From positions 31,613,949 to 31,677,948 of the forward strand of contig OX387182.1 of NCBI GenBank assembly GCA_947561395.2: a stretch of 64,000 nt of DNA, given 5' to 3'. The translations under genes were made by a program, and so were the position numbers. The notes under the pieces were generated by a model that searched no databases, was not told where the DNA came from, and saw only the letters and a program-made list of their open reading frames with translations. Each line of letters opens with the position of its first letter. The first letter of the stretch is position 1. Source of the stretch: Buxus sempervirens (lineage: Eukaryota > Streptophyta > Magnoliopsida > Buxales > Buxaceae). Shown here piece by piece: positions 11,482 through 64,000 of the stretch.

Positions 11482-11627
11482 GTGTATCCGAAATTAGTTT
11501 TCGGATACACAAGAAATATAGTGTAGCCGAAATTGGATTTCAGCTACATAGAAAAAATGGTGTAGCCGAAATCCAATTTCGGCTACACAAGGAGATGTGT
11601 TGATCTAACCTGAGTTGTCGGATCAGC
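11482..11627 (-). repeat. downstream palindrome array of T1 (39-bp period)
   Basis: Four 29-nt palindromes centred near 11496, 11535, 11574 and 11613, exactly 39 bp apart. The third is perfect, with 13-nt arms GTGTAGCCGAAAT/ATTTCGGCTACAC. The first has arms GTGTATCCGAAA. The fourth carries the core ACCTGAGTT found in the last palindrome of T3 and T6. Confidence 0.85.
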
Positions 11628-18220: not shown

Positions 18221-18325
18221 GCCCGTATTTATTATACGGGCTGGGCTAAACCGTAAATATAGTGCGGTTTAGGCCTGCCCGTATATTAAATACGGGTGAG
18301 CCTGAACCGTACTTCAAATACGGTT
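18221..18325 (-). repeat. downstream palindrome quartet of T2 (28-bp period)
   Basis: Four 21-23-nt palindromes centred at about 18231, 18259, 18287 and 18315, each 28 bp from the next. Arms are GCCCGTAT/ATACGGGC, AAACCGTA/TGCGGTTT, GCCCGTAT/ATACGGGT and AACCGTA/TACGGTT. GGGCT, GGCCT and GCCT spacers separate them. Confidence 0.9.
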
Positions 18326-20061: not shown

Positions 20062-20168
20062 GTGTAGCCGGCCTAAGATGCCGGTTACACACAGGACTCA
20101 GTGTATCCGGCATCTTTTGCCGGCTACGAATACAACTCTGTTGATCCGACCTGAGTTGCCGGATCAAC
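20062..20168 (-). repeat. downstream palindrome array of T3 (39-bp period)
   Basis: Three 29-nt palindromes centred at 20076, 20115 and 20154, exactly 39 bp apart. Arms are GTGTAGCCGGC, GTGTATCCGGCA and GTTGATCCG/CGGATCAAC, the last with the core ACCTGAGTT. Confidence 0.88.
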
Positions 20169-21316
20169 ATGCAGAAGCTGTTTTTGTGACTTTTGCATTG
20201 GGGTTGGGTTTTTAGGCTTCTTGGGGAGTTCAAGTGATTGTGTGGGCTCCTGTGTGAGCCCACATTGGTTCGGGTGAGAGCCACTTGGCTCTCTTGAAGG
20301 TGTTTTGAGAATCAAAGGGAAAAGATGGGGGCTGGGATTTGCCTCCTCCTTTTTTCTATCCCCAATCATTGCACAAACAGGGATTCAAGTATCCCTATTC
20401 TGGCTTCTTTTTCCCACACAAACACATCATTAATTTTGCATGAAGCAACAAACAAACTAAGGCATCCCTAAGCATGTTGCAAGCTAAAATTGAACTAAGT
20501 AAACAGTGGAATATGCGGAGCACCTAGATATATCTTCAATGCATGCAACATCAACTTAGACCATGTGCAAATGAAAACTAGAACATAAACTCAATGTGCA
20601 ACATCCTATCAATGTAGTAAAGTTATTCTAATAAAAGGACATTTAAAGAAGGGAACAAGGGGGATTACTCAAGGGGTACATTGGAAAAGGCAACCATGGG
20701 GGAATATGCTCCCAACTTTGAATAAGACAACCAATAACAGCAAACATTATGCTAAGAAGCCATTAGACCATGCTTAAAATATCATGCTTAAAGTGGTACA
20801 TTCTCATCCTAGAAACCGGAGATATGCTCCCATTACCAAGGGAACTTTCTCATGCCGAAAATGATGAACACAAATGGAGGGAGAAGACGTCAACATGCTG
20901 GGAAAGAAACGGGAAACATGCTAGAGAAGAAAATAACACTTTAACATGCTTGAAATGAGCCTATTTTCATTTATGCTGAACAACAAGTTGTAGGGAACAT
21001 TACCTTGATGTTTTAACACCCTTTTGAGGTGGGTGGACTCCCTCTTGCAACAAGAACAGTGGCTGGAACCTCCTCCTTCAAGCTCAAACAGCAAGTTCCT
21101 CCTTCTCCTTCAAGTATCAAGAGGTGTGGATGAAGATGGGAAGAAGGATCCAAGGTTAGGATGGTCAAGGAAGAGGTATATTTGGTTTGGGGAAGCAAGG
21201 AGGGGTTAAAGTGGTAGGTTTCGGACCAGGTACAGTGGGGGAGAAGGGGTGGAAACAGCCTAAGAGAAGCCAACCCCGGAAATGGGGCTGCTGTTGCCTT
21301 TTTATAGAAAACTTAA

Positions 21317-21563
21317 TGTATCCGGCATTTAATGCCGGATACACTACACTTCCTTTGTATCCGGCATATTATGCCGGATACACTGCACTTCCTTTGTATC
21401 CGGCATATTATATCGGATACAAAACATAATAATTTCGAAAATTAAATGCCGTCGCGAATTTGTCGGCGAATCGGCGCGAATCTCGCCAAGCAAATCTTTG
21501 TATCCGACATTTGAGTCCGAATATGAAGAGGAGCAAGTGTATCCGGCATATTTGGTCGGATAC
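21317..21563 (-). repeat. promoter-side palindrome array of T3 (39-bp period)
   Basis: 27-nt palindromes start at 21317, 21356 and 21395, exactly 39 bp apart. The first two are perfect, with 13-nt arms TGTATCCGGCATT and TGTATCCGGCATA around one central base. Two more diverged copies follow near 21500 and 21537. The array begins about 10 bp upstream of the TATA box. Confidence 0.92.
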
Positions 21564-22135
21564 AAATCGAAAAATTACGGATTTGCCCCTCGACTTGACC
21601 GATTCGACACTTTTGGATATCTACGGATTGCCCCCTGCGAATTTTGGTTAAGTCCCTGAGATATTTGATGATTTTTGGATATTTGAGATTTAGTCCTTGA
21701 GATATTTCGCTGCATTCATCGCCACGTGCGTAGTTTCTTTGCCACGTGTGCAGTTTCCGGTTTTGCTGCGCGGAAACTTCGACAGCTTATATCTCCCTCA
21801 TCCGAACTCCGATTTGAGCAAACTCAATTGCGTTAGACTCGTATCGAAGCCCCCTATCCAATGAGATAGGGCTAAGCACCTGGTTTGGGGTTCAAAAAAT
21901 TCAACTTTCGGCTCACCCTCAAGTTTGACCGGCCCACAGAACCTTCATTCGGACTCCGATTCCAGCAAACTCAGTTGCGTTGGACTCGTGTCGGGATTCT
22001 CTATCCACTGAGATAAAGTAAGGCGGCCAATTATCACTTGATCAAAAGGTCAAATTTCGACCCCTCAGGGTTAGACTTTTCTGCTAGGGTTTTCATTTTC
22101 AGCACCTCCAGGGGTGCAAAAATAAGGTGCTTACA

Positions 22136-22293
22136 CCCGTACTTCAAATGCGGGCGAAAAGCCCCCATTTTCAAATCTCACCGAATCTGTCGTACGGGAC
22201 GCGTGTCTTGCCGTACAGCGACGTGTGTCTCTTCCAGAAGGTGTGCCCGTATTTGAAGTACGGGCATGCCCCGCCCGTACTTCAAATACGGGT
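22136..22293 (-). repeat. promoter-side palindromes of T2, right part
   Basis: Continuation of the T2 array after the T3 insertion. It has the second half of a split palindrome (ending ATGCGGGC), and two further GCCCGTA..TACGGGC palindromes starting at 22244 and 22273. Confidence 0.8.
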
Positions 22294-23400: not shown

Positions 23401-23414
23401 CCCCCTTTTATAAG
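23401..23414 (-). promoter_or_regulatory. TATA box of T1 LTR
   Basis: The minus strand reads TTATAAAAGGGGG, with the first palindrome starting 10 bp upstream. Confidence 0.65.
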
Positions 23415-23423
23415 CAAACCATC

Positions 23424-23528
23424 TGTATCCGACCTGCATGGTTGGATACACATGATATTCTGTGTATTCGACCATGTAGGTCGGATACACTATGTATCCT
23501 TTGTATCCAACATTGTATGTCGGATGCA
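23424..23528 (-). repeat. promoter-side palindrome array of T1 (39-bp period)
   Basis: 27-nt palindromes start at 23424, 23463 and 23502, exactly 39 bp apart, built on TGTATCCGACC/GGTCGGATACA. Diverged copies follow near 23603 and 23634. Confidence 0.9.
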
Positions 23529-25938
23529 AAATCATTATTTCAAAAATTAAAGGCAGCAGGGATCCTGTCGAAGAATCTGACAAGGCGAATCTCTTATATC
23601 TGAAGTATAATTTCGGATATGAAGAAACACACATATATCCGACCATATATGTCGGATACAAAAGGCAAAATTTTGATATTTACAGATTGCCCTTTGGATT
23701 TAACCGATTTAATTGATTTGACACCTGAGATAATCGCAGATTGCCCCTGGATACTTTTAGATTAGTCTCTAAGATATTTTGAATATTTTGGATATTTACG
23801 GATTAATCCCCGAGATATTTATCTGCGTTTTCGCCACGTGTGCTGTTCTTTTGCCACTTGTGCAGTTTCCGGCATTGTTGTCCTAGAACTTTAACTGCTC
23901 ATATCTTCTTCATTTGGACTCCGATTCTGGCAAACTCAGTTGCATTAGAACTGTATTGAAGTCCTCTATTCATTGGGGCAGGGCTAAGCAGCTGATCTGC
24001 GGTTTAGCAGAAAGTCAATTTCTATTCTCTCTCAAGTTTGACCGATCTGTAAATCCTTCATTCGGACTCCGATTCCAGCAAACTCAGTTGCGTTGGAACC
24101 GTGTCGGGATTCTCTATCCATTGAGATAAAGCACGGGGGTCAATTATCACTTGATCAAAAAGTGAACTTTTGCCCCTTTAGGGTTTAATTTTTCAGCTAG
24201 GGTTTGCATTTCTGGCCCTTCCGAGAGCACAAAAATGAGGTGCTTACAAGTAGCATTGCCCATAAGCCGCACGATGGTATAGCATATGGTTGAGAGTTAT
24301 CTCAAAGGTGTATCTTTCTTTATGAGTCCTACAATGATGCTAAGATCACAAATACTTACTTCTGATATTGTTCATATGCTGGACGCATGTATTGGATGCT
24401 ATGGTTGGATGTGACTGTTTAGTACATTCCGGTTTCTATATTGGATTCTATTATGGATTTCTGAATCATGATCTTGATAGACTTCATACCGTTCATTAAT
24501 ACTTAAACTACATGCTGATTTGTATTCCATGATCGATATGAATGTTTATACGAGTTTGTTTACTTGAGACTGCTTATTCGTGCATGAAAATTTATTTTAA
24601 ATAATTATGAACTGTTTATAGCATGCATGTGTTGTCTACTAAGATATTCATATCTCACCCTACTTCTTTATTTTATTTTTCAGCTGATACGCGAGATGGG
24701 GATCATAGTGGTGATTTCCAAAGTGATCTTGTTGGCTATTTGCCGAAGGATTATTATTATCTCGACTTGATCTGAGGTCGAGGTGAGAGGATTCTATTTA
24801 CTGCTTTAACAGTTTATTTTATTTATTCGTTTTGATGTATCTGAGAGATTAGAACCTTTTGATTATTACCAGACTTAAATGATTATTTGGATTGGATAGT
24901 TTATTGGATTCTTTTTATAAGATATTAGACTACACTTCCGCACATTGATGTTTCCACACTCTGATAGTTTATTATTAAATGATTTAATTAATTCTTCAGT
25001 CTGGTTAAGTATTGATGATTACTTGATATGGGCCTGTAGCATCTCGAATTCGATTGTTGAGTTGGATTCGGGTTGTTACAGTAGCGAATCGGATTCGGGT
25101 CCGGTGCCGGTTTGCATTGACCCAGGTTTGGGGCGTTACACTCCCTATACTTCGAGTAATCATCAGCAGTTTCTACCTGCGGAGTATTGTCCTCACCAGA
25201 TGTGCGCACCTAAAAATGCCTAGATCGCACACGGGGCTCAAGTGAGTTCGTGCGTGCCTCGGGACTTTCGAAGTCGCCATTGCTTGAGAGGTACAGGCAG
25301 ACACAGGGATTGCCTATCCGAGTCTAAGTCTGGTCTGCGGCTTATTAGAGATCTAGCTAAGTCCTCGGTTATGTCCGGGGAAGTCCGAAGACACCCCGGC
25401 CTGCCTCGTTAGTTTGATGGGTCCCTCGGGTCTCCCTGATTTTTGAGTCAAATTCACCCTTCCTAGACCAGCATGCTTTCTTTTGGGTTTGGCGGGGCCC
25501 TCTAGAGGTGTGGGCCTCTTTTATTCCAAATTTTTTTATCTTTTTACTTAAGCTGTCTGGGTCGGATATAGGCCCCGTTGGAAGGCCTGTGGGTTGCCAA
25601 GTTTGGGCTTGGGCCCAGTAGGGTTATTGGGTAACCCTATTTTGGTTTAGGTTATTTAAGTAATTATGTATCTTAACGGCTTAGTGGGCTTGGATTTGGC
25701 CCAATAGCACTTATGCAAATGGCCTCGGACTCGTTTGTTGAAAACGGACCTGGTTTGGGCCGGTTAGAGGTGGGCCCCATAGGTGGGCCCATGAGGTCTT
25801 GGTGGGCCCATCTAGGCCCATGGTCCATAAGCGGGCTCAAGATAGCCCAAGCAACTTATTGGGCCGAGTCGAGCCGGTTCGGGTCGGAATGGATCCAACC
25901 AGGTCCAAAATTTCCACTTTTTACACTATTTTGAAATT

Positions 25939-26043
25939 GCCCGCATTTGTTATACGGGCTCGCCTTGTCCGTGAATAGAATACGGTTTAGGCCTACCTGT
26001 ATCGCAAATACGGGCATGCCCAGACCATATAATAAATACGGGC
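25939..26043 (-). repeat. downstream palindrome quartet of T4 (28-bp period)
   Basis: Four 21-nt units start at 25939, 25967, 25995 and 26023, exactly 28 bp apart, with arms such as GCCCGCAT/ATACGGGC and GTCCGTG/TACGGTT. Lower symmetry than in T2 but the spacing is the same. Confidence 0.88.
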
Positions 26044-26813: not shown

Positions 26814-26825
26814 CCTATTTATAGG
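26814..26825 (-). promoter_or_regulatory. TATA box of T4 LTR
   Basis: The self-complementary CCTATAAATAGG sits between a GGGGGCTGGCCCCC palindrome on the downstream side and the GCCCGTA palindrome array on the upstream side (minus orientation). Confidence 0.65.
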
Positions 26826-26836
26826 CATTTTTTTGT

Positions 26837-27021
26837 GCCTGTATTTGAATTACGGGCATGCCTTGCATGCCTTGCCCGTAATTCAAGTACGGGCGAGCCG
26901 CCCACGTGCCGAATCTCCGCGAATCCGCCAGCTGTCGCCGTACGGGACGCATGTCCCACTTCTAGAAGGCTTGCCCGTATTTGAATTACGGGCATGCCTT
27001 GCCCGTACTTCAAATACAGGC
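26837..27021 (-). repeat. promoter-side palindromes of T4
   Basis: Two pairs of 21-nt palindromes: starts 26837 and 26874 (37 bp apart because of a 9-bp duplication of the GCCTTGCAT spacer), and starts 26973 and 27001 (28 bp apart). Arms GCCCGTA/TACGGGC. Confidence 0.88.
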
Positions 27022-39713: not shown

Positions 39714-39818
39714 GACCATATTTCAATCACGGTCTGGGCTAAACCGTAATTTTAATACGGTTCAGGCCAGACCGTAGATTAATTACGGGCACGCCTGAAC
39801 CGCTCTAAGTTTACGGTT
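39714..39818 (-). repeat. downstream palindrome quartet of T5 (28-bp period)
   Basis: Four 21-nt units start at 39714, 39742, 39770 and 39798, exactly 28 bp apart, with arms such as AACCGTAAT/ATACGGTT and GACCGTA/TTACGGGC. Confidence 0.9.
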
Positions 39819-40590: not shown

Positions 40591-40600
40591 CTATTTATAG
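40591..40600 (-). promoter_or_regulatory. TATA box of T5 LTR
   Basis: The self-complementary CTATAAATAG lies 13 bp from the first promoter-side palindrome. Confidence 0.65.
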
Positions 40601-40613
40601 GCAGAATTTTCGT

Positions 40614-40818
40614 GCCCGTATTTGAAGTACGGGCATGCCTTGCACGTACTTCAAGTACGGGCGTGCCTTGCCCGTAATTCAAATACGGGCGAAAAACGAA
40701 TATTTGCAATTATCGCAGATTCTTCCGTACGGGACGCGTGTCCCGCCACGCGTCCTCTTCTAGAAGCTTGCCCGTAGTTGAAGTACGGGCATGCCTCGCC
40801 CGCACTTCAAATACGGTC
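40614..40818 (-). repeat. promoter-side palindromes of T5 (28-bp period)
   Basis: 21-nt palindromes with arms GCCCGTA/TACGGGC start at 40614, 40642 and 40670 (28 bp apart), and a second pair starts at 40770 and 40798 (28 bp). Between them is a GGACGCGTGTCC palindrome, also present in T2 and T4. Confidence 0.92.
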
Positions 40819-42421: not shown

Positions 42422-44300
42422 TACACAGGTAGTGGCAACACTCAAGGTCATGCAATTACATCAATGAAGCAATAACATTATATTACTAAGCTTAGACATC
42501 TGGATCCAGGACAAACTAGACCTTAAGTAAAATAAACTCAGCAACTCAACTCAATGTAATAAATCGACATGTAAAAACAACATCTCATGCCACCACGGCT
42601 AAACGCAAACAATATTTATCATGGGTCACACAGGACCAGCTCGCTCCATCATGGAGTTCTCAAAGTAATTCCCAAATAAATTTCACAGAACTGAATAATA
42701 TATGATTCTAAATCAGCCACCGATATAAAACAACATTCATGTAAATCATTTCTGGAGTGTGCCATACATTCAAAAATAAACTAGTATAATGGTGTAGATA
42801 AATTCCCAGCAAAATAATATTGTTCAAAACTAAATTTTCAGAATAAAACCCATTATACAATAATCAAAATAAGTATCGGAAAACTTCAGCAAAACAGTTC
42901 ATAGATTCTCAATTCCTTCATGTAGAGGTTTCAAGTATAATTATATTCTATACACCTATAGGAAAACAATATTTTATTTGAAAGCCCCAAGAAATAGACA
43001 TTTGTATAATCTGCCCAGACATAACATTAACCAAGAATATTGTCTCATGAAATCCAATTATAATTTCTAAACTAAAGAACCATATGCAAATAGATGTTTA
43101 TAAACAAAGATCCCAAGAGATCCACTTTATAAGTTCTATCTAGCAAGTAAAAGTTGAATAAAAACTCGAATAAATCAGTGTCACCAAATCTGAAATCTTA
43201 AGAATAAACTTGGTTTTACATAAATTAGAAAAACAATCAAAAGTTCTGACCAAAACTTTTTTAGTACAGGTGGAGATTAACTAACTTTATTTCTTAGTGT
43301 TCATATCTAAAACTTTCCTTCTTTTATCTTTGTAAAGAATAGTTATTATTATTATAGCTTACTTCAGAATCTGAGTTACTCTTATCTAGATCATATGAAA
43401 TAGTAACTATATAATCAAAATCCGAATTCCGTTTTCTAAATAATCAGCCATACCTAGCTCAAAAGTTATAGCTGGAGATATATGACTATCACCTCCATTT
43501 ACAGCTCCTTTAATCTAACCATCCATGTTACACCAACGCCCCAACTAATAATTTCTAATTAATCCTTTAAGTAATTTCCCCAATTGTGTTTTACAAATTA
43601 AAATGTGTATGTGTTGGACCAATTTCAGCATTCTAAGAATACTCAAATACTTAACTATACAGGTTTTCGATTTCACTAATTTATACCTTAGATATGATCA
43701 CATTTTTCATTGTCTCCTATACCTCAAAAGTCCTTTAATAACTTCTAATTAAACTCCCTTAATAATCCCAATAGAAGAAACTTAAAACAATTAAAGAAGT
43801 GTTGTAAGTGTGCTGGGTGCCAACCTTTGGGGAGGTAGGCGCCACTCAGCAGCACTCAGCGCACCCACTAAAATCCACAATGTGAGGTGCGGCTGATGCA
43901 AACCAACTAGGACTGACCTACTGTTGAACTCCCAGACCTTTTCCATCACCTTCCTAATCCTCTAAGCATGCCTTTAACATAAATTTGAATTTAAATAATA
44001 CATAAAACCAAGCCATAAGGAAGCAGCCGCCCATAGTAAAATATTCAGAGTTTTCAGCAACATCCAATGAATGAATTTAAGTTCTAAATGGAATGATCTA
44101 ATTTTTTTCATTTAGATCACTACCAGCATGATTTTAATCATCCAAACCATCAATTAACATGCAAACAAATTTAATCTAATCATAGATTCATGTATTTCAT
44201 GCCTAGGGGCCAATAACAACAAAAACAGGGAATCGGCTAAATACTTGCTCAAAGCTAAACTAAAATTCCAGTTAAAAACATCCAAAAAAATCGAATTGTG
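42422..44300 (-). other. G6 LTR middle (presumed leader intron), no gene
   Basis: AT-rich sequence with no coding frame of note and no RNA gene. It lies between the donor-like and acceptor-like motifs of the G6 LTR and contains the short CG-rich GGCGCC/AGCGC cluster at 43820-43890. Confidence 0.5.
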
Positions 44301-45409: not shown

Positions 45410-46701
45410 TTGGAGTCGCCACTACCTGATGGGGTGCAGGCAAACACCTGGGTGCCTAGATTTGTCTAGTAGGCTGGTCTGCGGCTTGAGATTCTAAGTA
45501 TGGTATCAGTTATGGTTCGGGGAAGTCCGTAGACACCTCGGTCCGCCCCGTTGGAGGGCGGGTCCCATGGGTTTCCCTAGTTTGAGTCAACTGGCTTTGG
45601 TATATCTATCCCGATTCCTAAGTCCAAGACACGCAAATTTTGTTAAGTCTGGCGGGGACCACCAAAGTGGTGTGGGTCCCCTTTTATTTGGTTTTATCCT
45701 GCTTTGTTTACGTGATCTGGGTTTGATTGGGCGGGCCCCATTGGAAGGCCCACGGATCCCCTAATGGGCCTAGCATGACCCATATGTCCCTTTGTGGGGA
45801 TTGAGTCTAACCCTAAAAGCCCTTTAGGGTTTTGGTGAAGTTAATTGATTTTATTTAGGGTTTGAGTGAAAGATTGCATTAAAATTTATTCTTGTGGGCT
45901 GGAATGGTTTGTGGGCCCATTGGGCAGGCCTCACAGTGGTTGCCTTATGTTTTGATTATCTGGATTAAATCATTCTCCATCTGGGCTAGGCATGGGCTTG
46001 GGGCCCATAACCTAGGTTTGGGCTTGAAAGCCCATGGCTCGATGGGTTAGGGTTTGGGTACCCTTTCCTTGTTGGTAAACGGGCTTTCCTTGAAAAGTAA
46101 GTGGGGGCCCGACAGGCCCCAAGCCCAAGGTCTCGGTCAGACCAAGCCTAGTCTATGCCAGCATGCTTCCGATTGGGCTTGAGCTGGGCCTCAAAGGGTG
46201 TGGCCCAGTTGCTTGAGTTATTTATTTGATTTGCAATTAAAGTGTATTTATTGGACTGGGTGGGCCTCGTTAGAAGGCCCACATGTGCTCAAGTTGGGCC
46301 CATTGGGCTCCAAGGCCCATGTTGGTTTTTGGTTGACCCAGAAACTCTATTGGATGACTTGTTTTAATTGAAAATGGATAAAAAACTGGACAAGGGTGAA
46401 AACGTGATCTTTTTTGGAGTTTTTGGGTGTATCCGAAATTGTATTTCAGATACTCCTTAAAAAAAGTATCCAAAATATATTTTCGGATACAAAGGAAGTA
46501 GGGCTTATCCGACCTGAGTTTTCGGATAAGCCCAGAAAACCTATTTTTGGGCTTTTTGAAATGGGATTGGTTTCCTTGGGCTTCTAGGGCTTGCTAGGGC
46601 CTGTGTGGGCCCACAGTTGTTCAGGGGAAGGGTGAGAGCCTCATTTGGCTCTCTTTTGGCTTCTTTTGGGGAATCAAAGGGAAGGGGGTGAGGCTAGGGG
46701 C
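45410..46701 (-). mobile_element. T6: partial Tat-like LTR (downstream part only)
   Basis: The sequence from GGAGTCGCCAC (45412) through the GGCCCA-rich segment and a downstream palindrome array matches the T copies in minus orientation. It begins without the usual LTR 3' end and stops at 46701 against the start of T7. The relation to G5 on its left and T7 on its right is not resolved. No coding sequence. Confidence 0.75.
46427..46531 (-). repeat. downstream palindrome array of T6
   Basis: Three palindromes centred near 46441, 46478 and 46517. The last, with arms GCTTATCCGA/TCGGATAAGC and core CCTGAGTT, matches the last palindrome of T1 and T3. Confidence 0.82.
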
Positions 46702-47274: not shown

Positions 47275-47522
47275 TGTATCCGACCAAATATGTCGGATAC
47301 ACATATTTCTGTGTGTATCCAACATATATTGTCGGATACAGAAGATTTTCTAAGCGAGATTCGCGCCGATCCCCCGACAAATTCGTGGCGGCATTAAAAT
47401 TCCAAATTATTGTGTTTTGTATCCGATATTTAATATCGGATACAAGTGGAACTTAGTGTATCCGACCATATAGGTCAGATATACTAAGGATTTAGTGTAT
47501 CCGACCTATATGGTTGGATACA
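47275..47522 (+). repeat. promoter-side palindrome array of T7 (39-bp period)
   Basis: 27-nt palindromes start at 47275 and 47314, then 47418, 47457 and 47496; within each group the spacing is exactly 39 bp. The 47418 copy is perfect with 13-nt arms TGTATCCGATATT. The TATA box follows 9 bp after the last one. Confidence 0.92.
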
Positions 47523-47531
47523 TTAGGTTTT

Positions 47532-47543
47532 CTATAAAAGGGG
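47532..47543 (+). promoter_or_regulatory. TATA box of T7 LTR
   Basis: CTATAAAAGGGG directly after the palindrome array, on the plus strand as expected for this copy. Confidence 0.65.
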
Positions 47544-52753: not shown

Positions 52754-53867
52754 GTGGCAGAAATGCCAATATTGGTATTTTCATGATTCTTGTTGCATTT
52801 TGATGACATTTCCAAGCAAACTTGATGAGCCAATAGGGTTTACGGGTCACCCGAAAACCCCACATGGGACCTGGACCGCCGGTCCAATTTGGTACATTAG
52901 TGGGTCTTCCAACGGGGCCCACCAAGCCCAATAAACCCTAAATGCATGTAAATGAGCAAGTTAAGTATAAGTAACCGGTTAAACCGGGTGGGCCAAACCC
53001 AATGTGGCCCACCCGAACTTGTTTTGTGAAATAGTGTATTTAAATAGCATGGTTTGGCCGAGACCAAGGGCAAGGGCCTATCGGGCCCACCAAAGCCCGC
53101 TAATCAACCAAGTGAGGGTTCAAAATCCTAAACTCCAAGAACATGGGCTTTCAAGCCTAAATTTGGACTATGGGCCCCAAGCCCAATGACCAGATTACTT
53201 TGGCAAATTAAACCAAGATAATCTAAAAATATTTTGGCAACCGCCATGGGGGCCCACCCAGGGGCCTGCAAACCAATGCAAACCCACTTGTTGCATGAAA
53301 ATCACGTAAGTCCCCAACTTGTATAAACTAAGTAAAATCAATTCATTAAACCTAAGCCCCAAGGGGCCTCCTAGGCTTAGACAGAGGCCCACAGGGGATA
53401 CATGGGCTTGACTAAGCCCACCAAGGACACCGTGGACCTTCCAAACGGGGTCCACCCAATCAAACTCAGATCACCTAATTAAGCAAGATAAAAACAAATT
53501 AAAGGGACCCACACCACTCAGGTGATCCCGCCAGACTTAATCAAATGGTATGCTGGATTAGGAATCGGGTGAGAACCAAAGTGAGTTGACTCAAACCAAG
53601 GAACCCATGGGACCCGTCATCCGACGGGGTGGTTTGGGGTGTCTACGGACTTCCCTAGACCACAACCGAGACCTTTCTCAGAATCTTAAGCCGCAGACCA
53701 GCCCAATAGACAAGATTAGGGGGGTGGCGACTCTGAATTTTCCCGTGCGGCGTTTCCGTCACGCTGTAGACACCCCAAATTGCACTACAAAATGAGAAAA
53801 TAATTGAAAACATGTAATTGGGATTTAAAATAGGTCAAAAATGCATAAAATTCAATCATTTAAGCAT

Positions 53868-53973
53868 TGCTCGTATTGTATCTACGGGCTGATGGCGCCC
53901 GAAATTTGTATACGAGCACGCAGCACCCGTAATAAGAATGCGGACCCCACTTGCCCGCAATATATTTACGGGC
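53868..53973 (+). repeat. LTR palindrome quartet of the Tat/Ogre element
   Basis: Four 21-nt units start at 53868, 53897, 53925 and 53953 (29, 28 and 28 bp apart). The last has arms GCCCGCAA/TTTACGGGC. It lies about 200 bp upstream of the TATA box. Confidence 0.82.
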
Positions 53974-54173
53974 GCAGGAGATTTGTGCGAATTTGATCTT
54001 TGCTCGATTTCTGAGCCTTATCTTCAGTCTAATATCTCTTTAGATGAGCGAATTATCTCTTTTATTCGTTCGAATAATCTTTGTTGGCCATGGATGGGCA
54101 TTATCCTTATTTTTAACCCAATCTGGGGGATCATGGTATATCCCTCTGGACTAGCCATACCCCTGGGTTTGCT

Positions 54174-54182
54174 TATAAATAG
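54174..54182 (+). promoter_or_regulatory. TATA box of the Tat/Ogre LTR
   Basis: TATAAATAG about 410 bp from the LTR start. GAGGTGAGATC follows. Confidence 0.65.
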
Positions 54183-54344
54183 AGGTGAGATCCTTAAGCA
54201 AAGGGCCATGAAATTTTGAAGTCTAAGGAGCTCCAAGTGAAGAGAAGAATCCCTGCTGCTTTGCTTGCTCAATCTAGTTAAGTCCATTTTCCCTTTTATT
54301 TTCTGTCTTCAATTCTAGAGATAATAGGATCTTCTCCATTGCTG

Positions 54345-54640
54345 TAGAATAAGGCATGGTTATTATTTGTATTCCTAAACCTGCCTCCAAGTACCTCAAG
54401 AATCCTCTCTAGCCGTAAAAGGTGAAGAGAGAGCTAGGGGAAAGGGGAACAGGTGGATCCCTAGAATAGAACCCCATATCTGTTTTTCTCCCTTTTTTGA
54501 TAGAATAAGGCCTTTGATTGTGTTTGTATTCCCAAACCTATCTCTAAGTACCTCAAGAATCCTCTCTAGCCGTAAAACGTGGAGAGAGAGCTAGGGGAAA
54601 AGAGAACAGGTGGATCCGTAGGGTAGACCCCCATGTGCTC
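54345..54640 (+). repeat. direct duplication in the Tat/Ogre LTR
   Basis: Two copies of about 140 bp sharing CAAGAATCCTCTCTAGCCGT and GAGAGAGCTAGGGGAAA, at 54345-54485 and 54502-54640. They lie in the part transcribed after the TATA box. Confidence 0.88.
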
Positions 54641-55573
54641 TAATTTGTGAGATATGGCTGCTTTAAATATCATGTGAATGTTTTAATGATTTTGTGTTGA
54701 ATCTGAATGAATCATATGAATCCATGATGTTTATAGCATGAGATCCCCACTTTTTTCTAAAATTTGGATTTTCACCACTTTTGCACTTACAGCACTGTTT
54801 TCGTGATTTTTGTGATATTAGGCTAAGATCCTGGATCTATCATGATCTATATGATAGATCTGGATTCAGAAGCCTGAAAGTAACTTCTAGGGTTTCATGA
54901 TATGGTTTTTGAGTTATTTTTCATGTTTAAGAGAAGACCTTACGGTCTAAGTTCTCCCCTTTTGATGTTCTTCATCAACGTGGGTATTTTTTTGGTTTTG
55001 ATTTCTTGATTTAATGTGAAATTTGGGCTATATCTATGTCCTGGACTGTTCGAGTTCAATTCTGCAGTGTTTTATAAAAATCATATTTTTTCTAGATTTC
55101 TAGAATTTAACTTGAAGCCAGATTTTTTAAGTTTTCACTTTATTTTGGTTTTGTTTGATTTTATCTAAATTTTATTTTAATCATGAAACCCTAGGAATGG
55201 TATGATCATATTTGAAATTTTTGGATCAATCAGGCTATTCGTATGAAAAAACCATATACTTTTGTCTTTTTGTGATTTTTTATGATTTTTGTAGTAAGCC
55301 TTCTTTATTTTTAACATGAACAATGCCTAGCAACCACCTTGTGTGAATGAATAGGGGTGCCTAACACCTTCCCCTGTTCATAACCTAATCCCTTTACCCA
55401 TCTCTGGTTGTTTTTTTAATAGGGTTATTTTTACCCTAAATTTGCCTTTTTGTGCTTATTTGAGATTTTGGTGCCCATTCATACCTAAACAGAATGGTGG
55501 CGACTCTTTGTTTTTAACGAATCCCGTGTGATGGTCAAGAAGTCATTAATTGATTTTTTCCATGTGTCACAAC

Positions 55574-55591
55574 TGGCGACTCTGCTGGGGA
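55574..55591 (+). other. primer binding site, tRNA-Arg type
   Basis: TGGCGACTCTGCTGGGGA, two bases after the LTR end. This wording is the usual Tat/Ogre primer site, described in the literature as complementary to a tRNA-Arg. Confidence 0.75.
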
Positions 55592-56841: not shown

Positions 56842-56946
56842 AACCGCATTTATTATACGGGCTGGGCTCGCCCGTGTTGGCTATACGGTCGTGGCTCGTT
56901 CGCAATTTAAATGCGGGCAAGGCCGGACCGTACTGTATATGCGGTT
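56842..56946 (+). repeat. leader palindrome quartet of the Tat/Ogre element (28-bp period)
   Basis: Four 21-nt units centred at 56852, 56880, 56908 and 56936, exactly 28 bp apart, with the same word family as the T2, T4 and T5 quartets (CCGCATTTATTATACGGGC, then GCCCGTG..TACGGTC, GTTCGCAA..TGCGGGC and GACCGTA..TGCGGTT). GGGCT and CCGGA spacers also match. Confidence 0.9.
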
Positions 56947-57084
56947 TTCGCGGAAAATCCAATTTTAAACAGTTTTTCCCACTAAATCTTATTCTTTTAA
57001 CCTTTTAATGATGATAAAGGAAAATGAGTTGGAATAAAATGTTTCAAAAAAATAAAATAAAAATGTGAAAAATAAAATCTTTGG

Positions 57085-57765
57085 GCCTCTGAAAGCCTTT
57101 GAATTTCAGACTTTTTTTCAAAAAGTTTTGGGCCTTTGAAAGCCTTTGAATTTCAGACTTTTTTTCAAAAAACCCCTGGGCCTCTGAAAGCCTTTGAATT
57201 TCAGATTTTTTTGGGCCTCTGAAAGCCTTTGAATTTCAGACTTTTTTTCAAAAAAAAAAAAATCCCTAGGCTTCTGAAAGCTTTGAATTTCAGACTTTTT
57301 TTCAAAAAAAAAAAAAATCCCTGGGCCTCTGAAAGCCTTTGAATTTCAGACCTTTTCCAAAAAACCCCTGGGCCTCTGAAAGCCTTTGAATTTCAGATCT
57401 TTTTCTTTGGGCCTCTAAAAGCCTTTGAATTTCAGAACTTTTCCCCTGGGCCTCTGAAAGCCTTTGAATTTCAGATTTTTCCCAAAAATATCCTTGGGCC
57501 TCTGAAAGCCTTTGAATTTTAGACCTTCTTCAAAAATAACCCTGGGCCTCTGAAAGCCTTTGAATTTCAGATTTTTCCCAAAAATATCCTTGGGCCTCTG
57601 AAAGCCTTTGAATTTCAGACCTTCTTAAAAAATACCCCTGGGCCTCTGAAAGCGTTTGAATTTCAGATTTTTTCCAAAAATATCCTTGGGCCTCTGAAAG
57701 CCTTTGAATTTCAGACCTTCTTCAAAAATACCCCTGGGCCTCTGAAAGCCTTTGAATTTCAGATC
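57085..57765 (+). repeat. 15-unit tandem array in the Tat/Ogre leader
   Basis: Fifteen copies of GGGCCTCTGAAAGCCTTTG followed by AATTTCAGA, separated by variable T- and A-rich spacers, with a period of about 33-57 bp. Each unit holds the inverted arms CTGAAA/TTTCAG, so every unit could fold into a small hairpin. The array ends about 240 bp before the gag start. Confidence 0.92.
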
Positions 57766-58004: not shown

Positions 58005-59620
58005 ATGAATCCCATTGAGAATGAAGCTGATATTCCTAACCCAGATGTAGCCATGCTTCAGGAGCAAGTGGCAGGACTAGCCCGAATGCTAGAGAGCATA
58101 CTGTCGGTGCAGGCCCAACAAGTACAAGCCTAGAACCAAGCATCCACTTCCAACCCAGCACCTCCACCCCAAATCAATATTCCACCTCTGGTTCAACCTA
58201 TTCTTGAACCCATTTATGAACCTACCCCTGAACTTATACTGATCAGGGATGAGACAGTTGAATCGGACAAAGAAAAGGAAAAAGAAAGGATGAGGGAAGA
58301 AATGGAAAAGAAATTCATGCACAGATTGGAAATGATCCAAGATGAACTGAGAGTGGTAAAAGGGGTGAACAACTTTGGGGGCACCAACTTTGAAGACTTG
58401 TGCCTATACCCTAATGTTAACCTGCCAGCCAAGTTCAAGTGTCCAGACCTGGATAAGTATGATGGCACGGGCTGCCCCATGAGCCATCTAAAGTTGTACT
58501 GCGGTGCTTTATGCCAGTTCGGTCGAGATGAGGGTGTTCTGATTCAGCTCTTCCAAAGGAGCTTGACCGGAACAGCTTTAAGGTGGTTTGCCACCTTGGA
58601 CCATGGAAAGATAGAAGATGGAAGGACCTAGAAGATGCCTTCCTAGCTCAATACAGGTTCAATTCAGAGATCGTGCCAGATAGGTACGACGTAATGAGAA
58701 TGAGTAAGGGAAAGGACGAATTTGTAAGGCAGTATGCCAAAAGATGGAGGGAGACGGCCTCTCAGGTCAGGCCACCCATGCTAGAGCAGGAGATGATATC
58801 CACTTTCATCAGTACATTGGGTCAACCATTTTACAGCCACCTGGTGGGTCAGACCACCACTAATTTTGTTGCCTTGGTAAAAGTGGCTGACCGAATCAAG
58901 GACGGGATTAGGTCAGGTAAAATAATTTACCACTCTGCTATGGTCAGTCAATAGGACCCCAATCTGAAGAAAGGAAGTGGGTTGAAAAAGAATGGGAACA
59001 AGAAAGAGGGGGAGGTGAACATGGTACAGCCACCATCAAGCCCTAACAAGCCCATACAAATTAATATACCCGCTCATTTTCCTACTCCATCTGCTCCATC
59101 TACCCAGGCCCCAATGAGGGTTAATGTTCCAGCAGCACCCTTAGACCAAAAGAGGGCTTTTACTAAAGAGGAAAGGGATGCCTACTTCGCAGCAAGGAGA
59201 AATAGGGTTTTCACCCCTATTCCAATGTCTCCGTCTCAGTTGCTACCCACTTTATTACAAGCAGGGTATATTACCTTAAGAGAACCCAATCTGAATGCAT
59301 CCAAGAGGAGAAATTTTGACCCTTCCACCACTTGTGATTTCCACATGGGTGCACCTGGGCACCCTACTGACAAGTGTTGGCCTTTGAAACATGCCATTCA
59401 GGATTTACTTGACCAGAATACCCTGTCTTTCAATACAGGGGTTCCCAATCCTCCTAGAACAGACATAGGTCAAAACCCTTTGCCTCAGCATCATGGGGTT
59501 GGTCCATCTAATGTCATAGGGGTCATTTCTTCTAATAAAATAACCTTTGACCCGTCTCAGTTAATCGCTCCTATAGGGACAACGGTCAAAGTGTATTTTG
59601 ACAGAAGAAATTAAGACAAA
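58005..59620 (+). pseudogene. Tat/Ogre gag fossil
   Basis: From MNPIENEADIPNPDVAMLQE through an acidic and charged stretch to the gag core: FEDLCLYPNVNLPAKFKCPD, KYDGTGCPMSHLKLYC, LTGTALRWFATLD, FLAQYRFNSEIVPDRYDV, KRWRETASQVRPPMLEQEM. The typical Tat knuckle-like motif CDFHMGAPGHPTDKC is encoded at 59333-59377. It would form the particle coat. Degraded, with several breaks. Confidence 0.88.
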
Positions 59621-62879: not shown

Positions 62880-63270
62880 AGGAATATTTATTGACCCCAC
62901 CTATGCTAGTGCCACCAACTCCAGGAAGACCACTGATTCTTTACTTGTCAGTTTTGGAGACGTCAATGGGGTGTGTCTTGGGGTAGCATGACGATATAGG
63001 CAGAAAGGAAAGGGCAATTTACTATCTAAGTAAAAAGTTCACAGAATATGAAGCAAAGTATTCCCCTTTGGAAAAGACTTGTTGTGCTTTAGTATGGGCA
63101 ACTCAGATACTGAGGCATTATTTCCTTAGTCATTCCACCTTGTTGATATCCCGAATGGATCCTTTGAAGTATCTATTTGAAAAACCGGCTTTAATTGGCA
63201 AAACAGCAAAGTGGCAGCTGTTACTCTCTGAATTTGACCTCACATATATCACTTAGAAGGCAATTAAGGG
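62880..63270 (+). pseudogene. Tat/Ogre RNase H domain
   Basis: AIYYLSKKFTEYEAKYSPLE, ALVWATQILRHYFL and PLKYLFEKPALIGKTAKWQL are the standard block after a Tat RT. It would remove RNA from the RNA/DNA hybrid. Degraded. Confidence 0.85.
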
Positions 63271-63379
63271 TCAAGCCATCGCTGATCACTTAGCTGCACA
63301 TCCTCTACCAGAATACCAACCCTTAAAGACCAACTTTCCTGATGAAGCAATCCTGTTTACTAAAGAAGAGGAAAGTGAA

Positions 63380-63780
63380 AGTTCTTGGCAAATGTTCTTT
63401 GATGGGGCCGCCAACATGAATGGAAATGGAATAGGGGCAGTTATGATCAAGCCAGATGGGGCACACATCCCAATTGCAGTGAAGTTAAGGTTCCAATGCA
63501 CGAACAATATTGCAGAGTATGAAATATACATAATTGGGTTACAAGCAGCCTTAGACCATGAAGTGGAGGAACTTGATGTATATGGAGATTCGAGTCTTAT
63601 CATCTTCCAAACAACTGGTGAATGGAAAACCAAGGATCACAAACTGATCCCCTATCACCAGTATTTGGAAGAAATAAGCACTAAATTTACTCGAATTTCC
63701 TTCAACTATATGCCAAGGGCCAATAACCAATTCGTGGATGCTTTAGCAACATTGGCTTCAATGGTCAGTATGCCAGAAGG
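63380..63780 (+). pseudogene. second (archaeal-type) RNase H domain of the Tat element
   Basis: SWQMFFDGAANMNGNGIGAV, then NNIAEYEIYIIGLQAAL, VYGDSSLIIFQTTGEW and NNQFVDALATLASM. An additional RNase H between the first RNase H and integrase is a known hallmark of the Tat clade. The frame continues with acidic sequence towards the integrase, which lies beyond the window. Confidence 0.85.
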
Positions 63781-64000
63781 TGTTGATATTAGACCACTAG
63801 AAATTGAAGTCAGAGATGAACCTGCTTATTGCCTTGTTCTAGAAGAAACACTAGAAGAAGAAGTACCATGGTTTCAAGACATTAAGAATTTCCTAAATGA
63901 TCGGAGTTTGCCAGAAAATGTCACTCCTACAGAGAAAAGAACAATACAGAGTTTGGCGGGTCAGTTCTTTCTAAGTGGTGGACAGTTGTACAAGAGATCA

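Follow-up and report, generated by a model that had tools for sequence, protein, structure and literature searches.

The tandem palindromes shared by an Ogre-like retrotransposon and several short LTRs of Buxus sempervirens are, judging from their sequence, probably arrayed dyad sites in promoter DNA, which a dimeric regulator would bind with a specificity that differs between sister lineages of elements. We describe here the sequence, spacing and positions of these arrays, the swap of one motif for another, and the concordance of array sites within each of the elements read.

The region analysed (the window) is a stretch of 64,000 nucleotides containing five quartets, each made of four 21-bp palindromes at steps of exactly 28 bp (Table 1). 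Four of them, in the short LTRs T2, T4 and T5 and in the leader of the Ogre-like element, lie exactly where the initial annotation had placed them; the fifth, in the LTR of the same element, has the 28-bp step too; it starts at 53869 (and ends at 53973), one base past the proposed start of 53868. The earlier view that palindrome quartets are common to LTR, leader and T copies and have been kept through divergence holds. Each 28-type unit comprises two half-sites, (G/A)(A/C)CCGTA-N7-TACGG(T/G)(C/T), and a symmetrised half-site profile from 14 array clusters, some of them related, reads G (82%), C/A, C (94%), C (97%), G (96%), T (81%) and A (90%), followed by an AT-rich 7-bp centre. A 27-bp step is present in some families, and leader arrays have either 4 or 5 units inside one family. 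The centre of the end unit is often ACTCA(G) or its complement, in arrays of the 28-type and of the 39-type described below alike, and other centres vary; this may be a sign of common descent or a second binding word.

Table 1. Arrays, promoter elements and coding features, by position in the window unless a locus (L) is given.
Feature	Position	Strand	Remarks
5' LTR, Ogre-like 28-type element	53765..55571	+	TGTAGACACC...GTGTCACA ends
U3 quartet, 28-bp period	53869..53973	+	LTR position 105-209
TATA box GCTTATAAATAGAGG	54174..54181	+	LTR position 410, 200 bp past the U3 quartet
Putative primer binding site TGGCGACTCTGCTGGGGA	55574..55591	+	
Leader quartet, 28-type	56842..56946	+	past the primer site; 4 or 5 units in sister copies
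gag fragment	58532..58951	+	PF03732, E 1.8e-6
RNase H-like domain	63257..64000	+	PF13456, E 6.8e-18
T2 quartet, 28-type	18221..18325	-	downstream array in sense
T2 distal 2-unit array, 28-type	22245..22293	-	T2 LTR interrupted at about 22135
T4 quartet, 28-type	25939..26043	-	downstream of TATA in sense
T4 TATA box GCCTATAAATAGGGGG	26817..26823	-	adjoins decayed proximal 28-type units
T4 distal 2-unit array, 28-type	26973..27021	-	
T5 quartet, 28-type	39714..39818	-	downstream of TATA in sense
T5 TATA box GCCTATAAATAGAGAG	40593..40599	-	
T5 proximal 3-unit array, 28-type	40614..40690	-	14 bp from TATA
T5 distal 2-unit array, 28-type	40770..40818	-	
T39 downstream 3-unit array	20063..20167	-	nested T39 LTR, TATA at 21306
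T39 proximal 3-unit array	21317..21421	-	nested T39 LTR, TATA at 21306
T39 distal 2-unit array	21499..21564	-	nested T39 LTR, TATA at 21306
Second T39 proximal 3-unit array	23424..23528	-	TATA at 23412
Second T39 distal 2-unit array	23595..23660	-	
Third T39, 2 + 3 unit arrays	47275..47522	+	TATA at 47533, plus strand
ACTCA(G) end-unit centres	window 20143, 46506; L044:2326, L054:3121, L180:285 and 3978, L181:171, L184:162, L187:151		

Two units at this spacing (CCGTA-N7-TACGG-N11-CCGTA) have 11,242 exact matches on the plus strand and 11,213 on the minus strand of the 676.5-Mb genome, where one pair of perfect units may be counted once per strand. The backwards control has none genome-wide, and by arithmetic a random sequence of this length with equal base frequencies would hold about 1.3 matches to 15 fixed bases. 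When the gap between units is left free from 3 to 16, we find 14,112 and 14,166 matches against 702 and 626 for the controls. Missing quartets or random spacing in other Tat elements, which the initial annotation had named as the outcome to look for against its link, are not what we see: among the first 100 matches listed, on which the free-gap spacing figures rest, the gap is N11 (a 28-bp step) in 92, N10 (27 bp) in 6, and 6 and 8 in one each, so that this check does not refute the link. Single palindromes are barely more numerous than their control (30,850 matches to CCGTA-N0..25-TACGG against 29,687 backwards), so the signal lies in the fixed gap of 7 rather than in number; when this inner gap may take any value from 0 to 25, it is 7 in 45 of the 50 places listed, and the remaining five have five different gaps. 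The inner gap is also 7 in all 87 exact pairs with gaps up to 12 from the window and loci L009-L058, a biased measure of spacing because L009-L038 came via a pattern that fixes N7 and N11; the outer gap in this set is 11 in 44, 13 in 5 and 10 in 4. One genome was searched and the best-scoring copies were sampled, so that copy counts are lower bounds. The 14 contigs with matches total 666 of the 676.5 Mb, which suggests 14 chromosome pairs.

The 5' LTR of the Ogre-like element in the window is 95.9% identical over 1811 aligned positions to its 3' LTR (L051:1406-3204), and the LTR pairs of five elements that we call A to E are 99.1-99.9% identical. In elements A, B, C and E, TGGCGACTCTGCTGGG likewise comes after the LTR. 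Ty3-type gag (PF03732) is recognized at E 2.6e-11 or better in elements A-D, and in element E at E 4.9e-5, slightly below the cut-off. An integrase zinc domain (L050:1-405) follows the RNase H-like domain PF13456, which we take to be an archaeal-type RNase H; the reverse transcriptase and first RNase H were not located. In total the element carries 4 + 4 palindromes in its two LTRs, 4 in the leader, 5 at the promoter of an accessory gene and 4 before the 3' LTR. In LTR coordinates, the U3 quartet of the Ogre-like elements (that of the window, A, B and E) begins at 103-105, and the TATA box follows at 408-417. A listed leader is within 5 kb of 3 of the 40 U3 copies. Of the 40 leader copies listed, 9 are followed within 25 kb downstream, on the same strand, by one of the 40 accessory arrays listed.

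Other repeats accompany these arrays. Shortly past the leader quartet of the window is a 48-bp tandem repeat (57082-57763) of about 14.6 copies with an inner inverted repeat (CTGAAAGCC..TTTCAG), and two direct repeats of about 112-134 bp, 84-89% alike, are located in the LTR downstream of the TATA box (54366-54634), with similar direct repeats in elements A, B and E. Two young Ogre-like copies with gag (L039-L040 and L041-L043; LTRs 99.6-99.9% identical) have no ORF longer than 105 aa between gag and the 3' LTR in the scanned stretches L040:1500-4800 and L043:1-3100, and therefore look non-autonomous.

Beyond the window, between integrase and the 3' LTR, the element carries the accessory gene in antisense (L050:2906-3742, minus strand), which encodes a plant mobile domain (PF24924, E 6.6e-21; PF10536, E 4.1e-13). 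A 5-unit 28-type array and a TATA box, separated by 23 bp, lie upstream of this gene (L050:3774-3937). For at least 18 of the 40 array copies scored, an accessory gene in the list lies 59-65 bp away in divergent orientation, a lower bound because the gene list holds the best 150 of 5365 first-look candidates. An array near a TATA box at the antisense accessory gene is present in both sister lineages, that with 28-type and that with 39-type arrays. The accessory protein is attractive as the factor that would read the arrays because its own promoter carries one, and it may be such a DNA-binding protein; the factor may also come from the host. The accessory protein matches no solved structure at E up to 1 and no NCBIfam entry. 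The DOWN motif of plant mobile domain mutants, CATGCAGTTT, was considered and bears no resemblance to either dyad. A second plant mobile domain gene (L050:8106-9757; PF10536, E 6.3e-12) is located on the same strand in the 3' region of the window element, and is perhaps a nested insertion; its protein has only 22% identity, over 105 aa, to the accessory protein of L188.

The short T LTRs repeat this promoter arrangement. In the T-type LTRs of elements C and D, whose sense is set by gag (PF03732), 2 + 3 units lie upstream of the TATA box, the nearest 14 bp away, and a quartet lies about 800 bp downstream of it. Because the T LTRs of the window run on the minus strand, 2 + 3 palindromes stand upstream of TATA in sense, and the T quartets that the initial annotation named are the downstream arrays. 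We found no TATA box beside the leader quartet or the downstream T quartets. The T LTR of element C aligns with the Ogre-like LTR loci L055 (= L024), L057 and L017 in the array only, and with L056 in the array and elsewhere too. The proposed tie between the T copies and the Tat element is thus seen in a shared array grammar, with general sequence less shared, and a common recognition code would appear to fit it better than close descent.

Two nested insertions lie at or near arrays. In T2, a 39-type T LTR is inserted at 22135 in the proximal palindrome array of the 28-type T LTR, and at about position 1597 of L032 the U3 array of a 28-type LTR has a 39-type Ogre LTR starting some 60 bp away. 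Both are in line with the frequent targeting of palindromes by LTR elements reported in PMC6911290.

Elsewhere in the window are tandem palindromes with a period of 39 bp and a unit of TATCCG-N11-CGGATA. With the gap left free from 3 to 22, TATCCG..CGGATA occurs at 42,609 places against 357 for the backwards control, and the gap is 11 in 87 of the 89 places listed. The 28-type and 39-type units are both CCG-N11-CGG dyads, and their pitches are 11 bp apart. The TATA box lies 10-11 bp from the proximal array in the three T39 LTRs of the window; no TATA box lies within 120 bp of one more 39-type array, at 46428-46530. At 11485-11590 is a 39-period array whose units have changed in both arms together (TAGCCG..CGGCTA for TATCCG..CGGATA).

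The 39-type occupies the same positions as the 28-type in homologous elements. The element at L180-L182, with LTRs that are 100% identical over 1962 bp, has 39-type arrays in U3, in the leader, at the accessory promoter and before the 3' LTR, and its span contains no 28-type pair among the matches listed. Similarity to the window element is 69-72% in the longer LTR segments and 78% in a leader segment, and neither array region aligns. Its accessory protein, encoded in antisense at the corresponding place and preceded by an array and a TATA box, shares 73% identity over 228 positions with that of the window element. In 11 of 11 elements or LTRs with at least two readable array sites, some of them related, one system is used throughout: the 28-type in the window element, A, B, C, D, E, T2, T4 and T5, and the 39-type in L180-L182 and one T39 LTR. 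In this count, the 39-type array at L049:8209 is not part of element E, and T2 is an LTR that the nested T39 has split. The loops differ among the arrays of one element, so whole-unit copying between sites does not explain the concordance. One system at all array sites read in an element is expected if a single trans-acting factor with diverged specificity reads all of them.

The half-site cores are also the most conserved part of the arrays. Identity across six U3 regions, leaving out L024 (which is locus L055), is 0.902 in cores, 0.583 in loops, 0.533 in spacers and 0.72-0.83 in the flanks, and within four families the columns that carry shared variants number 2 of 136 for the core, 29 of 210 for loops and spacers and 42 of 479 for the flanks. 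The U3 family taken by itself shows no greater constancy of the core: 2 of its 32 core columns have shared variants, and the mean difference is 0.066 in the core and 0.043 in the flanks.

From the fixed half-site gap with its free centre, the looser pitch, the conserved cores, the placement near TATA boxes and the joint switch of motif, we infer protein binding, dimerisation and an effect on transcription, that is, sites for a dimeric DNA-binding regulator. Each 21-bp unit would be one predicted site for a two-fold symmetric, sequence-specific protein, arrayed upstream of TATA at the LTR, short T LTR and antisense accessory gene promoters, with one further array in the transcribed leader. The arrays may act as an upstream regulatory platform, either activating or anti-silencing, and could set transcription of the element and of its accessory gene together. 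Sister lineages would use a second specificity and pitch (TATCCG-N11-CGGATA, 39 bp) while keeping the CCG-N11-CGG core spacing. The leader array may be a downstream site of the same kind, or may add a role in RNA. Reading the units as dyad sites leaves unexplained why their symmetry extends beyond the need of a dimer.

A more elaborate version of this proposal, rather doubtful as a whole, is that Ogre elements encode, or depend on, a private operator code. The arrays at the LTR promoter, in the leader and at the factor's own promoter would all be read, in a feedback loop, by a dimeric factor specific to the lineage, which could be the antisense plant mobile domain protein itself. Sister lineages would have switched between the 28-bp CCGTA and the 39-bp TATCCG code at every site at once, and each short T family would draw in trans on the code of one lineage or the other.

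An alternative explanation is that the leader and 3'-end (U3) arrays form hairpins in genomic RNA that serve packaging, dimerisation or translation control, which we consider unlikely. The arrays do fold more stably, by minimum free energy, than dinucleotide shuffles in 12 of 12 strands (z -3.65 to -10.28), and similar nested folds are predicted for the leaders of the window, L039 and L042. However, when the half-sites, loops and spacers of each array are shuffled within that array, the shuffles fold equally well (z -1.69 to 1.54 in 14 of 14 arrays), and the strong values against dinucleotide shuffles thus reflect the dyads only, with no array-specific folding. Greater stability than that of cross-family chimeras is seen in all 9 transcribed arrays (z -0.24 to -2.30) and in 1 of the 5 upstream ones, a contrast for which base composition may be the cause. 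Sense folding likewise beats antisense folding in 8 of the 9 transcribed arrays and 1 of the 5 upstream ones, but for all three arrays folded both ways the shuffles differ in the same direction as the array itself (-33.96 against -25.5 for the window leader, -23.26 against -21.53 for T5, and -23.84 against -27.32 for T2); we read the difference as base composition and reject a sense-strand folding signal. Departures from pairing in sense-oriented transcribed arrays include 22 G-U, 20 A-C and 33 others, with no bias to G-U.

A hairpin or pairing code in the outer half-site dinucleotides of the 28 system, striking in the window leader, was dropped after within-array shuffles, which leave no excess for self pairs (74 of 114; 73.6 expected), neighbours (57 of 86; 56.8 expected), nested pairs (48 of 86; 53.6 expected) or outermost pairs (20 of 28; 16.9 expected, p 0.09). 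Shuffles across families leave a weak excess, with 0.861 against 0.800 for the outermost half-sites of 28-type arrays (p 0.0007), in families that are partly redundant, O3 leaders being present in both orientations (L058 and L091). In the 39 system outer positions do couple within arrays (276 of 320 against 263.5 +/- 4.1, p 0.0005; 20 arrays, some of one family). An alignment of 50 five-unit leaders, which leaves out L066 and L104 for their differing length (2 of 52), has more cells with double changes than shuffles (41 against 21.4, or 26 against 14.6 under a simple-hairpin model), relatedness being uncontrolled in both, but the number of pairs with double changes is not above shuffles (10 against 8.9, and 5 against 5.8 for simple hairpins). 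Columns 90-100 are UA in 39 leaders and CG in 11 with none broken, and RNAalifold gives a covariation term of -1.71 with double changes in 5 of 38 pairs. Hairpins in genomic RNA also leave the arrays at the TATA box of an antisense gene unexplained. The initial annotation had suggested an RNA or DNA structure kept through divergence. Its RNA half is unsupported by these comparisons, some coupling aside, and dyad sites in promoter DNA fit better.

It is very improbable that the palindromes lack a function and owe their origin and symmetry to template switching of reverse transcriptase (quasi-palindrome correction). Symmetric changes of single units, such as AATAACCG..CGGTTAAT and TTGATCCG..CGGATCAA, and variation in unit number by whole 28-bp units are consistent with such an origin, but cores resist change where loops and spacers do not, the distance to TATA hardly varies among the T LTRs, and sites whose loops differ still agree in their system. 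There is an equally slim chance that the arrays are CG/CCG-rich palindromes through which the host would seed methylation or small RNAs, by analogy with what has been proposed for maize Sireviruses, whose similar boxes form CpG islands according to passages of PMC2829016 and have an excess of small RNAs, reported second-hand in PMC10760457. Neither the lineage-specific, element-wide swap of motif nor the retention of cores by the element is predicted by host recognition.

Arrayed dyad sites for a dimeric regulator can be compared with several known systems. VANC anti-silencing proteins of VANDAL transposons have lineage-specific motifs, and are alike in that an element-encoded factor and short arrayed motifs co-diverge between families, such a factor being a candidate one for the window arrays; they differ in that VANDALs are DNA transposons with non-palindromic motifs. 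Ogre elements make up much of some plant genomes, and to our knowledge neither their activation trigger nor a role for the plant mobile domain accessory protein has been established. One motif that marks both the LTR and the accessory promoters, and switches as a set between sister lineages, would give a direct handle on the binding protein. Grande belongs to the Tat clade, and we know of no palindrome array or motif swap in it. This related plant element has a nuclear accessory protein encoded in a long 3' internal region. The accessory gene is reported to have its own promoter (Gomez-Orte et al. 2013, cited in PMC11963269). Extra ORFs with a plant mobile domain are reported in 57% of Ogre elements (Neumann et al. 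2019, PMC6317226), and are similar to ours in domain (PF10536/PF24924) and position between integrase and the 3' LTR; passages of that paper describe the ORFs, to which the window element adds an accessory promoter with the same array type as the LTR.

Among plant transcription factors, NAC proteins bind a palindrome of CGT-N7..8-ACG (passages of PMC4081100), which shares inverted CGT(A/G) half-sites with the 28-type unit, but the window spacing is CGT-N9-ACG and the flanks are (G/A)(A/C)C rather than TTN or T(G/A). We therefore rejected identity with the NAC site, and NAC and OsSUF4 sites were both set aside for misfit in spacing or core. The literature surveyed, consisting of titles, the starts of abstracts and passages, with most subscription papers outside it, does not name Ogre arrays, two exchangeable systems or element-wide concordance.

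The nearest known case is that of the palindromic repeated motif (RM) boxes of Sireviruses (Bousios et al. 2010, PMC2829016). In the passages of that paper on which we draw, the RMs are short palindrome arrays with a CGG/CCG core upstream of TATA in the LTR, have a second placement beside an extra gene (env in Sireviruses) inside the element, and keep the core while the rest varies between elements. By our own reading of a table there, they number 8-32 copies of CGG-N4..6-CCG (one element being without the core) in Ty1/copia elements. The window element shares with them a palindromic CGG/CCG array shortly upstream of TATA and at least 8 copies per element, and is not a Ty1/copia (SIRE clade) element; its Ty3-type gag indicates that the window elements are not Sireviruses. 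The window arrays further differ in form (CCG-N11-CGG, repeated every 28 or 39 bp) and in having 2-5 units each; they belong to elements with a Ty3/gypsy gag, there are two interchangeable systems, and the leader has an array too. On this comparison, it seems that plant elements of both the Ty1/copia and the Ty3/gypsy kind have evolved palindromic promoter arrays.
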